Below, in pieces: positions 47,318 through 55,198 of a stretch of DNA of 64,000 nt. Below the pieces are notes generated by a model. That model was not told the origin of the DNA. It saw only the letters and a program-made list of their open reading frames with translations, and did no database searches. The position numbers were made by a program, and so were the translations under genes. Origin of the DNA: Streptococcus oralis (GTDB lineage Bacteria; Bacillota; Bacilli; Lactobacillales; Streptococcaceae); contig NZ_CP065707.1 of NCBI RefSeq assembly GCF_016028255.1, positions 1,193,001-1,257,000 of the forward strand, in the 5' to 3' direction. Position 1 is the first letter of the stretch. Every line of letters starts with the position of its first letter.

Positions 47318-48178
47318 ATGGAAAAATTAATTGCCTATAAACGGATGCCCTTGTGGAATAAACAGACCATGCCTGAAGCAGTTCAGCAAAAGCACAATAC
47401 TAAAGTCGGCACCTGGGGAAAAATTACTGTCTTGAAGGGGGCACTCAAGTTTATTGAGTTGACAGAAGATGGTGAGGTTCTAGCTGAGCACCTCTTTGAG
47501 GCAGGGGCTGACAATCCCATGGCGCAACCGCAAGCCTGGCACCGAGTAGAGGCTGCAACAGACGATGTAGAATGGTACTTGGAATTTTATTGTAAACCTG
47601 AGGATTATTTCCCTAAGAAATACCAGACCAATCCAGTCCATTCAGAGGTCCTAGAGGCTGTGCAAACGGTGAAACCAGGAAGAGCCTTGGATTTGGGTTG
47701 TGGTCAAGGCCGTAACTCTCTCTTTCTCGCACAGAATGGTTTTGATGTGACAGCTGTGGATCAAAATGAATTGTCCCTTGAAATCTTGCAAAGCATTGTG
47801 GAACAAGAGGATCTAGACATGCCTGTCGGACTTTATGATATCAATTCAGCCAGCATTAGCCAAGACTATGATTTCATCGTATCGACAGTTGTTCTGATGT
47901 TCCTACAAGCGGACCGCATTCCAGCTATTATCCAAAATATGCAGGAGCACACCACGGTCGGTGGCTACAATCTTATCGTCTGTGCCATGGATACAGAGGA
48001 TTATCCTTGCTCAGTGAATTTCCCATTCACCTTTAAAGAAGGGGAGCTAGCCGACTACTACAAGGATTGGGAATTGGTCAAGTATAATGAAAACCCAGGA
48101 CATCTGCACCGTCGTGATGAAAATGGCAATCGCATTCAATTACGCTTTGCGACTATGCTAGCTAAAAAAATCAAGTAA
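47318..48178 (+). CDS. tehB: TehB-like SAM-dependent methyltransferase with N-terminal cupin-like domain
   Basis: The 286-residue protein is the two-domain TehB form: an N-terminal beta-rich domain (about 1-95, Met-Pro-Leu-Trp-Asn, ending in Tyr-Leu-Glu-Phe-Tyr) of the tellurite-resistance/DUF1971 type, then a class I methyltransferase domain with the SAM motif [10 protein letters not shown] (about 126-135). TehB methylates tellurite and related oxyanions in resistance assays; the natural substrate is open. GAAGAGGAAG precedes the ATG. It follows smpB closely and ends in a terminator. Confidence 0.92.
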
Positions 48179-48277: not shown

Positions 48278-48355
48278 GAAGTAGGAAATCTGAGCAGTAG
48301 GGCTGTATTGCTGATACACTCAGCGCAAGAAAGTCTTTATGATGGAGGTGGTCGA

Positions 48356-49516
48356 ATGACGAGTCTTTTGGTGGAATTGTATGATCGGCATGTATTGGAA
48401 AAGAATGTCTACCAAGCCTTTATCAGTGATTGTGACGAGATTCTTTTTCTATCTTTGATAAAAATAAGCAATGAAGAGAAAGTTTCTCTCCGTCAGTTTA
48501 TCCTTGAAGAAGTCCCCCATATCCAGCGTGTGACCTTTCGTCAGCTATCTTTAGAACAATTAACAGACCAGTTAGATTATTGCCTTGCAGGCTATGACCA
48601 AGTCCTTCTCGATGTTTTTGGCGGAGATTCACTACTAGCCTTATCTCTCTATCAATATGGCTTGGATCGCCACCTCCCCATCGTAGCCATGGATGTCGAG
48701 CGGGGAAAACAATACAAGTGGGTAGCTGGTCAGTTGGAAAAAGAAGACTTGGACATCCCTACCCTAAGCATCCAACAGTTGATAGCCTTGCGTGGTGGAA
48801 AAATGCTCAAATCAAAACGCCCTATCCACTCAGTTGAGCAAATTGCTGCCATCAAAAAATTAGCCAGCTCTGCCATTTCCAATCCTGCTCACTGGTATCA
48901 AGTGACCCAATTTTTCTCTCTAGCTAAGACCAATGACCTTCATGCTGAAACCGAAAAGATACTGGAAAACAATGGCAAGTATTATCACTACCCAGAATCT
49001 CTCATCCCTTTACTTGTGGAGGCTGGGATGATTCGTATTGAAAGTGAAGACAAGAAACGAGTAGCATACAGCTTTCCAAGTCAAGAAGCTCAAGTTTTTT
49101 GTCGCAACAAGGGGCATATTTTAGAGGTGTATCTCTATCTCTTGGCGCTTGAATCTCAGCTGTTTGATGAGTGCATGATAGGCGGTGAAATTGATTGGAA
49201 CGGCATCTTTCCAGAGGCAGACAATGTTCAAAATGAGATTGATGTCATTCTGAGAAAGGGGCGCTCGATTACCTTTATCTCCTGCAAGATGACAGATTTA
49301 TCAGTTGAAGCCATCAACGAACTAGAAGTCTACGCCAATCATTTTGCTGGGGAGAGTTGCCTCAAGTTAATTGTCTGTACGGGGAAAATCAATCCCGTTT
49401 ATGCCAATCGTTGTCAGGAATATGGCGTGCTCGTCATTAGAAGCGAGCAGATCCCCAATCTCATTCCTATACTAAAAAATACTCTAAGAGATTTAAAAGA
49501 TAAAAAAGCAATATGA
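48356..49516 (+). CDS. Card1-like (DUF1887) protein: CARF domain plus PD-(D/E)xK nuclease domain
   Basis: I start at ATG 48356 because GGAGG lies at 48344-48348; 36 in-frame codons upstream have no support. The 386 residues follow the DUF1887/Card1 plan. Residues 1-150 look like a Rossmann-type CARF sensor, with the ligand-loop region Asp86-Val-Phe-Gly-Gly-Asp-Ser92 standing where relatives have Thr-Gly-Gly-Thr-Lys. A linker with Leu-Arg-Gly-Gly-Lys-Met follows, then a winged part (about 165-250), and a nuclease fold near 255-386 with Asn-Glu-Ile-Asp296 and Ile-Ser309-Cys-Lys311. In Card1 the catalytic set is Asp, Glu, Lys with nearly the same spacing; here Ser replaces the Glu. Card1 of type III CRISPR is switched on by cyclic tetra-adenylate. 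No cas gene or array is in the window. The gene sits between tehB and the competence gene coiA, with its own promoter and terminator. Confidence 0.75.
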   Translation: MTSLLVELYDRHVLEKNVYQAFISDCDEILFLSLIKISNEEKVSLRQFILEEVPHIQRVTFRQLSLEQLTDQLDYCLAGYDQVLLDVFGGDSLLALSLYQYGLDRHLPIVAMDVERGKQYKWVAGQLEKEDLDIPTLSIQQLIALRGGKMLKSKRPIHSVEQIAAIKKLASSAISNPAHWYQVTQFFSLAKTNDLHAETEKILENNGKYYHYPESLIPLLVEAGMIRIESEDKKRVAYSFPSQEAQVFCRNKGHILEVYLYLLALESQLFDECMIGGEIDWNGIFPEADNVQNEIDVILRKGRSITFISCKMTDLSVEAINELEVYANHFAGESCLKLIVCTGKINPVYANRCQEYGVLVIRSEQIPNLIPILKNTLRDLKDKKAI

Positions 49517-49541
49517 AAGGCTGGAATTCCAGCCTTTTTTA
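49516..49541 (+). terminator. Terminator after the Card1-like gene
   Basis: AAAGGCTGGAATTCCAGCC is a perfect palindrome followed by TTTTTT. It separates the gene from the coiA cin-box. Confidence 0.9.
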
Positions 49542-49548
49542 CTTCTTT

Positions 49549-49556
49549 TTCGAATA
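49549..49556 (+). promoter_or_regulatory. cin-box (ComX promoter) of coiA
   Basis: TTCGAATA matches the streptococcal cin-box (T[A/T]CGAATA) and lies 22 bases before coiA. Confidence 0.85.
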
Positions 49557-49577: not shown

Positions 49578-50534
49578 ATGTTTGTAGCCAGAGATGCCAA
49601 GGGAAATTTGGTGAATGCCCTCGAAAAAGATGTGACCAAGCAGCCTTACACCTGCCCAGTTTGTGGGGGCGGACTACGCTTACGCCAAGGACAGAGTGTT
49701 CGAACGCACTTTGCCCATGAAAGGTTAAGGGATTGTATCGCTATTTTCGAGAATGAAAGTCCAGAACACTTAGGCAACAAAGAGGCCCTTTATCACTGGG
49801 CCAAGAAGGACAGTCAGGTCGCCTTAGAATATAGTTTGCCCGAGATTCAGCAGATAGCGGATGTTCTCGTCAATGAGAAACTAGCTCTGGAGGTTCAGTG
49901 TAGTCCCTTGTCTCAAAAGATTTTAGGCGATAGAAGCCAAGGATACCGTAGCCAGGGCTATCAGGTTATCTGGCTACTGGGAGAAAAACTCTGGTTAAAA
50001 GAGCGATTAACACAACTGCAAAGGGGATTTCTCTATTTTAGTCAAAATATGGGTTTCTATGTTTGGGAACTGGATCTCAAAAGGAAAATTTTGAGACTCA
50101 AATATCTTCTGCATCAGGATCTACGTGGCAAGCTTCATTTTCAGGTCAAGGAATTTCCCTATGGCCAAGGAAATCTCTTGGAAATTCTACGATTTCCTTA
50201 TCAAAAACAAAAACTGCCTCATTTTGCAGTTGTACAAGATTCATCTATCTGTCACTACATTCGTCAGCAGTTGTACTACCAAACGCCTTACTGGATGAAG
50301 AAGCAGGAGGAGGCCTATCAGCAAGGAGACAATCTATTAAACCGTCAACTGGACGACTGGTATCCCCAGGTCAGACCGATAGCATCAGGTGATTTTTTGC
50401 AGATTGAAACGGATCTGACTAGCTATTATAGAAATTTTCAGGCATACTATCAAAAAAATCCGAAAAATAATCGCCAAAAGCTCTATCCACCAGCCTTTTA
50501 TCACTTATATTTCTCAAGAAATATGGTAAAATAG
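49578..50534 (+). CDS. coiA: Competence protein CoiA
   Basis: CoiA is needed for recombination of incoming single-stranded DNA in competent cells. The 318-residue protein has an N-terminal zinc-ribbon-like Tyr-Thr-Cys-Pro-Val-Cys (about residues 24-29) and Arg-Thr-His-Phe-Ala-His, followed by a PD-(D/E)xK nuclease-like core: Glu-His-Leu-Gly-Asn-Lys near residue 58, then Ala-Leu-Glu-Val-Gln-Cys-Ser near 98 and Gln-Val-Ile-Trp-Leu-Leu-Gly near 128. GGAGG precedes the ATG. Expression should be ComX-dependent. pepF follows after 18 bases and has its own -10. Confidence 0.94.
   Translation: MFVARDAKGNLVNALEKDVTKQPYTCPVCGGGLRLRQGQSVRTHFAHERLRDCIAIFENESPEHLGNKEALYHWAKKDSQVALEYSLPEIQQIADVLVNEKLALEVQCSPLSQKILGDRSQGYRSQGYQVIWLLGEKLWLKERLTQLQRGFLYFSQNMGFYVWELDLKRKILRLKYLLHQDLRGKLHFQVKEFPYGQGNLLEILRFPYQKQKLPHFAVVQDSSICHYIRQQLYYQTPYWMKKQEEAYQQGDNLLNRQLDDWYPQVRPIASGDFLQIETDLTSYYRNFQAYYQKNPKNNRQKLYPPAFYHLYFSRNMVK
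50527..50532 (+). promoter_or_regulatory. Extended -10 promoter of pepF-trmR
   Basis: TAAAAT preceded by TGG inside the last codons of coiA. It would give pepF expression outside competence. Confidence 0.45.
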
Positions 50535-53082: not shown

Positions 53083-53118
53083 TATAATCCTTCTGTATCA
53101 AAAACAGGAGGATTTTTA
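53083..53118 (+). promoter_or_regulatory. Overlapping promoter, terminator and Shine-Dalgarno element before the recombinase
   Basis: AATCCTTCTG (53086-53095) pairs with CAGGAGGATT (53105-53114), followed by TTTT: an intrinsic terminator for pepF-trmR. Its 3' arm contains the Shine-Dalgarno AGGAGG of the recombinase (ATG at 53118). A -10 TATAAT (53083-53088) overlaps the 5' arm, so a transcript started there (near 53095) would lack that arm and leave the ribosome site free. Confidence 0.7.
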
Positions 53119-53741
53119 TGTCTCAAAACATCATCAATATTGGCTATGCACGCGTTTCAACCCACAAGCAAGATTTGGGCTTAGAGGTGCAAATCGATGC
53201 TCTCAAGCATTGTGACCAGCTTTTTATCGAGCGTGAATCTGGCTCAAATAATGCACGCTCAGAACTCGAAAAGGCTCTAAAATTGGCTCAAACGCTTTCG
53301 AAAAAAGGAACGCAAGTCACTTTCACCATCTACAAGCTTGATAGGCTTACGCGCTCTATGTTTAAATTGCTAGAACTGATTGAACAATTTAATGATTCGG
53401 ATATTCAGCTAGTCAGTTTGCATGAAAAGCTGGAAACCGATTCGCTCATTGGTAGGTTACTTTGTGTCATTTTAGGATTTGTGGCAGAAAGTGAGCTGGA
53501 AAACTTGCGATTTCGTACTCGTGAAGGGCTTCGTAAAGCTAAGGAAAAAGGTGTCAAACTGGGTGCTAAGCGAATTTCGAAAAAGAAGGAGGAGAGAATT
53601 ATTGAGCAGTATTTGGCAGGTGGATTAAGCATAAGAAAAATTGCAAAAACAGAACAAATTTCGACCTCAACCATCTATAAAGTGTTGGAACGCAACGATG
53701 TGGCCAACAATCGAAAAAAAGTTTCGCAAAATTCTTGCTAA
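53118..53741 (+). CDS. Serine recombinase (resolvase/invertase family)
   Basis: A 207-residue small serine recombinase. The N-terminal catalytic domain opens with Ile-Gly-Tyr-Ala-Arg-Val-S14, the nucleophile, and has the conserved Tyr-Lys-Leu-Asp-Arg-Leu-Thr-Arg-Ser near residue 72 and Glu-Ser-Glu-Leu-Glu-Asn-Leu-Arg on the long helix near 124. The C-terminal helix-turn-helix (about 160-195, Leu-Ser-Ile-Arg-Lys-Ile-Ala ... Ser-Thr-Ile-Tyr-Lys-Val-Leu) is intact. Such enzymes resolve or invert DNA between short inverted-repeat sites; two candidate sites lie just downstream. It has no visible transposase partner and appears to have been inserted between trmR and prsA. Confidence 0.93.
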   Translation: MSQNIINIGYARVSTHKQDLGLEVQIDALKHCDQLFIERESGSNNARSELEKALKLAQTLSKKGTQVTFTIYKLDRLTRSMFKLLELIEQFNDSDIQLVSLHEKLETDSLIGRLLCVILGFVAESELENLRFRTREGLRKAKEKGVKLGAKRISKKKEERIIEQYLAGGLSIRKIAKTEQISTSTIYKVLERNDVANNRKKVSQNSC

Positions 53742-54046: not shown

Positions 54047-55198
54047 ATGAAAACGAATAAAGTGACCAAACTTGGTATTTCTTTGCTTTCTGTTGCAGCT
54101 CTTGGTGTTGTTGCGCCAGCTTTGACTGATGTGCCTGTTTTAGGGGCTACTGTCGTAAAAGCTGAAGAACAACAGAGGTCAATTAATTTCCGTATCTCTT
54201 TTTATGACGCGGAGACAGGAGAAGAAATTGCTCCTGAAATGACGGGCACTATAAGACCTGGTGAATCCATTAATATACATAAAGAGATTAGCGGATATCA
54301 AATTGTCTCAAAGATCAGCTGGATGCCTAATTATGTCATAACCTATGATATGGTGAGTCTTTATTTCCACGGTGATCCAGATGGATACCACGGAATGTAT
54401 CTGGATTATAGAAAATTAAATACAGATGTCAAACCTTCAGAGACTTCAAAACCAGAAGTAAAACCGGAAACTAAACCTTCTGATACGTCAAAACCAGAAG
54501 TAAAACCGGAAACTAAACCTTCTGATACGCCAAAACCAGAAGTAAAACCGGGACCAGCACCAAAAGATGAAGAAAAGCAGGAGCCCCTCAAATACCGCAT
54601 CACTTATTATGATATTGAAACAAGAGAGATGCTTGGTCAAATGACGGGCGTGATAAATCCCGGGCAGACTATCAATATCTATAAAAAATTTAATGGACAT
54701 GAGATAATCTCAAAGGATAGCTGGATGCCAAACTATGACATGACGTATGACATAGTTAATGAATACTTCTATGGCTCGGCAGACGGATACAATGATCTGC
54801 GCCTAGAATACAAGAAAGTAGAGGAGCCAACTCCGGAACCAGCGCCAACGCCAACTCCGATTCCGACTCCGAAACCAGCGCCAACGCCAACTCCGACTCC
54901 GGAACCAACGCCAACTCCGACTCCAGAACCAGAAGTAAAACCGGCACCTAAACCTTCTGATACTTCAAAACCAGAAGTTAAGCCAGAGCTTAAACCACAA
55001 ACTAATTCGAATACTGCTCCAACAGCTCCTGTCAAACCTGTTGGGCAAACTTCAAACTCTAAAGCTGACAAACCTACGTCGAAAAAAGAAACTCCAGCTC
55101 TTCCAAACACGGGTGAACAAAGTTCTTCACTTTCTCTAGTAGGTCTTCTCCTAGCAAGTCTTGGCTTAGCAGGTCTAACTTACAAAGGACGTCACTAA
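54047..55198 (+). CDS. LPXTG-anchored surface protein with a duplicated domain
   Basis: A 383-residue cell-wall protein. Residues 1-41 form a long signal peptide without a YSIRK motif. Two copies of a roughly 80-residue domain (about 48-125 and 181-262) share Arg-Ile-[Ser/Thr]-[Phe/Tyr]-Tyr-Asp, Met-Thr-Gly, Ile-x-Pro-Gly-[Glu/Gln]-[Ser/Thr]-Ile-Asn-Ile and Ser-Trp-Met-Pro-Asn-Tyr; the opening resembles MucBP-type repeats, but I would not call it so with certainty. Between and after them are Lys-Pro-Glu-Val-Lys-Pro repeats and a Pro-Thr-Pro run. It ends in LPNTG (352-356), a hydrophobic segment and Lys-Gly-Arg-His, so sortase A should attach it to peptidoglycan. AAGGAGG precedes the ATG. The gene appears to belong to the recombinase insert. 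Confidence 0.9.
   Translation: MKTNKVTKLGISLLSVAALGVVAPALTDVPVLGATVVKAEEQQRSINFRISFYDAETGEEIAPEMTGTIRPGESINIHKEISGYQIVSKISWMPNYVITYDMVSLYFHGDPDGYHGMYLDYRKLNTDVKPSETSKPEVKPETKPSDTSKPEVKPETKPSDTPKPEVKPGPAPKDEEKQEPLKYRITYYDIETREMLGQMTGVINPGQTINIYKKFNGHEIISKDSWMPNYDMTYDIVNEYFYGSADGYNDLRLEYKKVEEPTPEPAPTPTPIPTPKPAPTPTPTPEPTPTPTPEPEVKPAPKPSDTSKPEVKPELKPQTNSNTAPTAPVKPVGQTSNSKADKPTSKKETPALPNTGEQSSSLSLVGLLLASLGLAGLTYKGRH
54446..54930 (+). repeat. Proline-rich coding repeats in the LPXTG gene
   Basis: A 42-base unit (14 codons, Ser-Lys-Pro-Glu-Val-Lys-Pro-Glu-Thr-Lys-Pro-Ser-Asp-Thr) occurs at 54446 and 54488 with almost identical DNA, and a partial copy returns near 54966. Around 54835-54930 a short Pro-Thr-Pro codon repeat (CCAACTCCGACT-type) follows. 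Both are prone to length change by slippage. Confidence 0.85.

Follow-up and report, generated by a model that had tools for sequence, protein, structure and literature searches.

A Card1/Can2-like CARF nuclease of Streptococcus oralis with a predicted permuted active site and a possible link to SAM-AMP-type CRISPR signalling

The closest described relatives of the protein considered here are the Can2 and Card1 nucleases (SthCan2 7bdv, Card1 6wxw, T. brockii Can2 8q3z, 8bao). These carry an ExK motif in the active site and keep a lysine and a tyrosine that bind cA4. In SthCan2, Lys99 and Tyr118 hold the cA4 phosphates (PMC7969007), and the Can1-2 nucleases are assumed to be cA4-activated as a class (PMC11229360). 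Cdn1 (9u49, 8z4i), which is activated by cA4 and cA6 (PMC12825302), keeps the loop TGGTK and the motif ECK. VC1899 of Vibrio cholerae (1xmx) is also of the ExK type and, according to its published description, has an arginine at the position of the loop lysine. Another kind of signalling is used by the CorA-1 type III-B systems, where the messenger is SAM-AMP and the known effector is CorA; a CARF nuclease is not described as an effector in the parts of the CorA-1 paper drawn on here (PMC10600005). The same source links SAM-AMP synthesis to the acidic Cas10 residues D70/E151 (Bfr), where P. furiosus has Asn/Arg. S. oralis has already been named among these systems (Chi et al. 2023, PMC10600005, Fig. 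1 legend). In the part of the literature on the B. fragilis locus cited here, its NYN ribonuclease is not thought to be directly defensive (PMC11346440). Among open-access titles and abstract openings on SAM-AMP signalling, no SAM-AMP-activated CARF nuclease is reported, and the open-access literature consulted on the topic contains no SAM-AMP-activated effector other than CorA.

The window, i.e. the whole 64-kb stretch of S. oralis DNA analysed here, encodes a 386-aa protein that an initial annotation, made from the sequence letters, had described as a CARF-type sensor joined to a PD-(D/E)xK nuclease. This layout is borne out. The PADLOC model CARF4--CARF_PDDEXK (PDLC01884) matches the protein at 817.7 bits, and the AlphaFold model (mean pLDDT 91.3) has its best PDB matches, among those listed, in VC1899, Cdn1, Can2 and Card1, over nearly the full length, which includes the two structures with which a comparison had been suggested. 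The profile PF09002 (Card1_endonuc) gives a result that points both ways, being significant (E 5.8e-4) but at 19.9 bits below the gathering score of 26.4, so that the Pfam cut-off is not reached. The N-terminal part is a CARF Rossmann domain, and the C-terminal part is a restriction-endonuclease-like domain with a near-full-length match to a solved member, both as defined for the CARF4 superfamily (DUF1887/Can2/Card1); by profile and model together, membership of this superfamily is close to certain. The NCBIfam match to PurL, with E 0.046 and 12 bits where 1047 are required, is chance. Unlike Can2 and Card1 proper, the protein has SxK and E322 in place of the catalytic (D/E)xK glutamate, lacks the counterparts of Lys99 and Tyr118, and is encoded outside a type III operon; it also differs from Cdn1 in both the loop and the ECK motif. 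The features of the gene and its surroundings are collected in Table 1.

Table 1. Features of the nuclease gene and its neighbours, in window coordinates
Feature	Position	Strand	Basis
Card1/Can2-like (CARF4) CARF + PD-(D/E)XK nuclease gene, 386 aa, ATG start	48356..49516	+	ORF, profile, AlphaFold model
Ribosome-binding site GGAGG, ATG 7 nt further on	48344..48348	+	seen in sequence
Ligand loop F88-G-G-D-S92 (SthCan2 counterpart TGGTK)	48617..48631	+	alignments
Nuclease active-site E294-I-D296	49235..49243	+	alignments
S309-C-K311, SxK in place of ExK	49280..49288	+	alignments
E322 in the next helix, proposed stand-in for the missing Glu	49319..49321	+	alignments, AlphaFold model
Terminator-like hairpin, gap between nuclease gene and coiA	49515..49538	+	terminator scan
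tehB-like methyltransferase, upstream edge of slot	47318..48178	+	ORF; name from initial annotation
coiA, downstream edge of slot	49578..50534	+	ORF; name from initial annotation
TTCGAATA box ahead of coiA	49549..49556	+	4 matches in window vs 2.4 expected; weak alone

The gene boundaries and the residues singled out earlier (the FGGDS loop, D296, S309 and K311) all proved correct, and a terminator-like site does lie at the end of the gene, as claimed. The claim that the gene has its own promoter did not hold up: only two promoter-like sites occur between 48100 and 49700, against 3.0 expected by chance, and neither lies within the gap upstream of the gene. A candidate extended -10-like sequence, TGCTATACT, can be picked out upstream by eye. 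The TTCGAATA box ahead of coiA, which we take to be of the ComX type, is no more frequent in the window than chance allows. A link to competence had also been raised, and this is unsupported because the terminator and the TTCGAATA box intervene between the nuclease gene and coiA, and because relatives have nothing, or a HicB-like ORF, in this slot; a competence operon was rejected on these grounds. Elsewhere in the window, a resolvase-like ORF (a serine recombinase, by eye) is found at 53118-53741, shortly downstream of pepF and methyltransferase genes, and at 54414-54986 a Pro/Lys/Thr-rich coding stretch resembling the stalk of a surface protein contains direct repeats, spaced by 42 nt and by 24-36 nt.

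In the nuclease domain, Ser309 occupies the column of the ExK glutamate, and a different glutamate, E322, lies 13 residues beyond it. ExK-type relatives have no Glu at that place: the four solved chains that were aligned all keep the ExK Glu, and at column 322 they have Lys (1xmx, 8z4i, 8bao) or Pro (7bdv). The AlphaFold model places S309 and K311 in strand 304-311 and E322 in helix 317-331. Both S309 and E322 are invariant in the 51 rows of the homologue alignment A4. The phylum-wide set, which partly overlaps with A4 so that the two counts are not summed, and from which the fragments L173 and the first part of L188 are excluded, has Ser at column 309 in 31 rows, 30 of them with Glu at column 322, and Glu at 309 in two rows, both with Lys at 322. 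The coupling is not absolute, since one homologue (L185) pairs Ser with Lys. That copy (L185:8247-9521, in G813) reads SCK, with Lys replacing the helix Glu, and is possibly inactive; another homologue, L150, is without the catalytic Lys at 311.

Such an arrangement is already known from Cfr10I, NgoMIV, AgeI and other CCGG-family restriction enzymes, in which the site is a permuted PD...K...E and the carboxylate has shifted from strand to helix (PMC6344858, PMC551604). Because of this likeness, Ser309 is read here as part of a permuted and, by prediction, working site, and it is probably not a lost catalytic residue. The likeness is one of site arrangement; the CCGG-family enzymes are sequence-specific and not CARF-gated. 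None is among the 50 VIA matches listed, which is no evidence either way. The initial annotation had considered altered nuclease chemistry, or a protein acting as a sensor only. A loss of the chemistry, or a role as sensor only, is not supported, because E322 co-varies with Ser309 and because the nuclease domain is the most constrained part of the gene, with dN/dS of 0.028 in the S. oralis rows and 0.060 in the S. infantis rows. For the whole gene the corresponding values are 0.081 and 0.135, which indicate that it is under purifying selection.

The ligand pocket has changed as well. SthCan2 Lys99 and Tyr118 align to S92 and A111 of the window protein, and D91, the neighbour of S92, is invariant in the homologue alignment. 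As this Lys and Tyr are lost, the pocket probably does not take cA4 in the way of Can2, and the suggestion made earlier that the protein answers a different signal is therefore plausible.

Homologues were found in 56 of 284 genomes of the genus, the named carriers being S. oralis, S. infantis, S. taonis, unnamed Streptococcus and one record labelled S. pseudopneumoniae. The loci fetched with a match comprise 30 from the genus survey (own genome included) and 21 named records, several of which are the same genomes. In these the gene has coiA and pepF as neighbours, together with smpB and tehB in all but L025 and L040 (apparently one genome), where neither was found; the sole exception to the whole arrangement is G064, described below. 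In a survey centred on coiA, which was found in all 59 relatives and for which 30 loci were kept (own genome included), the nuclease lies between tehB and coiA in eight loci, three have no nuclease and a tehB-coiA gap of 65-73 nt, and one has a HicB-like ORF; in 18 of the 30, tehB was not found upstream within the locus. The occupancy of this interval, a survey of which had been proposed, is thus variable, and the nuclease is a resident chromosomal gene in a small variable slot. Since the HicB-like ORF (135 residues, by eye; L107, G219) fills the slot where the nuclease is absent, this seems to be a small hot spot of accessory genes. At least four of the 56 copies look broken (G069, G074, G125, G245). 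A reading as phage or plasmid cargo was rejected: no relatives were found in viral contigs scanned with alignment A4 (one degenerate pattern, so a weak scan), and a plasmid search with the L136 homologue gave no match. A search for CorA in plasmids returned 4 distant records.

It had been stated that there is no CRISPR system in sight, and as regards arrays and Cas10 this is correct, but for the window only. The direct repeats of the 64 kb include no CRISPR-like array, and the gene sits in the tehB-coiA slot and not inside a CRISPR locus, as claimed. The whole-genome search for cas10 that had been recommended gives a single Cas10 match, outside the window, within a type III-B Cmr locus at C1:1326929-1337869 (L057:5930-16870), about 84 kb from the nuclease gene. 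This locus has matches to models of Cas6, Cmr1, Cas10/Cmr2, Cmr3, Cmr4 and Cmr6, a 143-aa ORF in the Cmr5 position, an array for which 38 repeat copies were reported, and a membrane protein resembling CorA (L057:15302-16870; PADLOC CorA, 184 bits). Its 532-aa Cas10/Cmr2 has an intact GGDD and the acidic pair D73/E157. In these respects the locus is like the CorA-1 SAM-AMP systems. A DEDD-like exonuclease (by eye) lies at L057:1793-2383, in the same chromosomal site as the III-B locus, and is also present at this site in L060 and L174, beside loci in which CorA was not detected. A type III locus elsewhere in the genome had been named as something that would turn the nuclease into an ordinary accessory effector. 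Such a locus exists in this strain, but that explanation is incomplete, because the III-B locus has its own CorA-like effector and a SAM-AMP-linked Cas10, and because no Cas10 palm exceeds the cut-off in 46 of the 56 carriers.

Across the genus, the Cas10 palm exceeds the cut-off in 26 of 284 genomes, ten of them carriers of the nuclease, and most carriers are thus without a detected type III system. SMODS cyclases occur in 8/56 carriers, two of these also with Cas10, and 40/56 have neither. No obligate partner is known, since so many carriers lack both, and a CBASS cyclase in this role was rejected given the eight carriers with SMODS. Any Cas10 is present in 10/56 carriers against 16/228 non-carriers (p 0.019), an acidic-pair III-B system in 5/56 against 3/228 (Fisher p 0.009) and Csm1 in 6/56 against 11/228 (p 0.11), all uncorrected for kinship; for this reason these statistics are given little weight, the operon evidence being stronger. 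Among the five carriers with an acidic-pair III-B system, the search for CorA was positive in G000, G064 and G225 and negative in G114 and G201. A type III locus of another kind, which includes a CARF-like gene of its own (by eye), is present in G026 and G198, where the window nuclease has no homologue. A TIGR02578 match in G210 was taken as a false positive, the ORF resembling RNase Y by eye. In a further genome (G283), a 719-residue protein with a DUF3800-like start and a repeat-like rest (by eye) occupies the place of CorA (L059:11817-13976), adjoining the acidic-pair III-B Cas10 gene; partial ORFs of this protein are seen in L060 and L174, the copies in G201 and G114 being apparently in pieces.

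Beyond the genus, with query genomes counted in each case, homologues were found in 10/398 Bacillota genomes with profile A2 and in 15/398 with PF09002, in 4/101 genomes of the family of G600 and in 12/100 of the family of G505. Nine of the homologues sampled in Bacillota have the loop Lys, and each of the nine has a Cas10 gene in its genome, at a distance of about 1-31 kb. Lys is absent from 23 other homologues with the loop column filled (L144, which has no CARF part in frame, is excluded from this count); L137 has Arg, as VC1899 does. These Lys-less homologues are of two kinds, either solitary or within a III-B operon. The solitary set outside the genus comprises 17 genomes (the broken G772 being excluded). 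Six have no Cas10-palm match, nine have weak ones (some above the 27-bit cut-off, up to 31.9 bits), the best in each genome being an ordinary GGDEF diguanylate cyclase, and in the remaining two (G471 and G832) the weak matches stay under the cut-off. The 12 genomes of the family of G505 (L135, L177-L187) carry Lys-less CARF nucleases without a recognised Cas10 and form a large orphan clade.

The copies within III-B operons number four, three with CorA (L058, L136, L171) and one without (L172), and three of the four form one clade. The Streptococcus genome G064 (L058), the nearest outgroup of the streptococcal clade at 53% identity, has the CARF nuclease in a III-B operon together with CorA, a WDGH-domain gene and RT-Cas1. 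The WDGH-domain protein (PF25311, ~127 residues, L058:9877-10263) is encoded between CorA and the CARF nuclease. In L136 and L171 (G600, G754) the CARF gene directly precedes corA with nothing between, and on the 16.3-kb contig of G736 (L172), where no CorA was found, it is the sole non-cas gene seen between Cas6 and Cas2. Three of the four operon copies thus combine a Cmr locus, a CorA-like protein and an acidic-pair Cas10, as in the CorA-1 systems (PMC10600005). Equivalents of D73/E157 are present in 11 of 11 Cmr2-type Cas10s compared (eight of the genus, the window's genome included, and those of G600, G754 and G736). At these positions Asn and Ala/Gly stand in the three Cas10s compared from the nine beside Lys-bearing homologues, L151 being one whose Cas10 did not align. 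In a 34-row tree, from which the loop and active-site columns were removed and L144, L173 and L188 left out, the streptococcal copies fall with G064 in one clade (100/100) and the three III-B copies of the family of G600 in another (100/100). The branches that part the III-B/CorA copies are well supported and call for two separate origins. Two changes are required for the loop Lys on this tree, and deeper placements, on long branches, are unsure.

We propose that the protein is a signal-gated CARF4 nuclease with a permuted site and a pocket that does not take cA4, which responds to a SAM-AMP-type signal and is kept as a stand-alone chromosomal defence gene; we give this reading as a whole a probability of about 0.5. 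It would be a dimer, dimerisation and defence being assumed from its relatives. The nuclease would be active through E294-D296-K311-E322, with E322 supplying the carboxylate missing at Ser309, which co-variation, conservation and the precedent of other enzymes make likely. The signal would be SAM-AMP or the product of acidic-pair type III-B Cas10s. This part of the proposal is made because of the two independent operon links and the III-B/CorA locus in the same genome, and on such genomic association it stays tentative, at somewhat less than even odds. Binding of the signal would make the nuclease domains close in the manner reported for Can2 and Cdn1, whereupon nucleic acid would be cut and the phage slowed. 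In strains without Cas10, the nuclease would await an incoming system or use another source of signal. It is conceivable, at a still lower level of confidence, that the whole Lys-less, permuted-site clade serves SAM-AMP-type CRISPR signalling as its soluble nuclease effectors (or as switches), kept by oral streptococci and many other Bacillota as free-standing chromosomal genes available to transient III-B systems.

The main rival to a SAM-AMP-type link is a role independent of CRISPR, in which an orphan nuclease resembling VC1899 responds to some other nucleotide, of cellular origin or triggered by phage, or shows little regulation of its activity; the III-B links would then be secondary recruitments. 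Most of the clade are solitary Lys-less copies, and in the genus the gene is syntenic and constrained even though 46/56 carriers lack Cas10. VC1899 itself has been described as an orphan whose pocket is unfriendly to cA4 and whose weak RNase activity does not depend on cA4 (PMC7969007). The position of G064, the nearest outgroup, in a III-B/CorA operon speaks against such a role, as does the second, independent lineage in a III-B operon, and we regard it as possible and not as probable. That the protein is dead or decaying because of Ser in place of Glu, the sensor-only option already mentioned, agrees with the Ser at the canonical Glu column and with the broken-looking copies; it is very unlikely, as conservation is highest in the active-site region and E322 changes together with Ser309.

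It is also improbable that the protein serves in trans, as an ordinary cA4/cA6 effector, any type III system present in the strain, III-A Csm or III-B Cmr. The somewhat higher frequency of any Cas10 among carriers, and the six carriers with Csm1 over the cut-off, would fit this, but Csm1 alone is not significantly enriched, and the ligands of the cA4 phosphates are replaced by S92 and A111, next to the acidic D91. In a further alternative, the protein would be the off-switch of SAM-AMP signalling, its CARF or nuclease domain degrading the messenger in place of the NrN, DEDD or lyase enzyme usual with CorA. CorA seems to be obligately tied to a degrading enzyme (PMC10600005), and the gene immediately before corA in L136 and L171 would suit this; such enzymes may be nearby, the search having covered DEDD, with a one-sequence profile. 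In L172, however, an off-switch alone would be pointless, there being a CARF gene and no CorA in the contig, and the predicted active site is that of a nuclease acting on nucleic acid, so that we consider this, too, improbable.

The exchange between Ser309 and E322 is a warning that homologues without the ExK glutamate may be miscalled as inactive. If the Lys-less clade senses SAM-AMP, the pathway would gain a nuclease arm, the CARF fold a new class of ligand, and a large set of 'orphan' DUF1887 genes a function that can be tested. In that case the ligands of CARF pockets would have changed in class, from cyclic oligoadenylates, which are anionic, to a conjugate that bears a sulfonium, by the same kind of basic-to-acidic change as is seen in Cas10.
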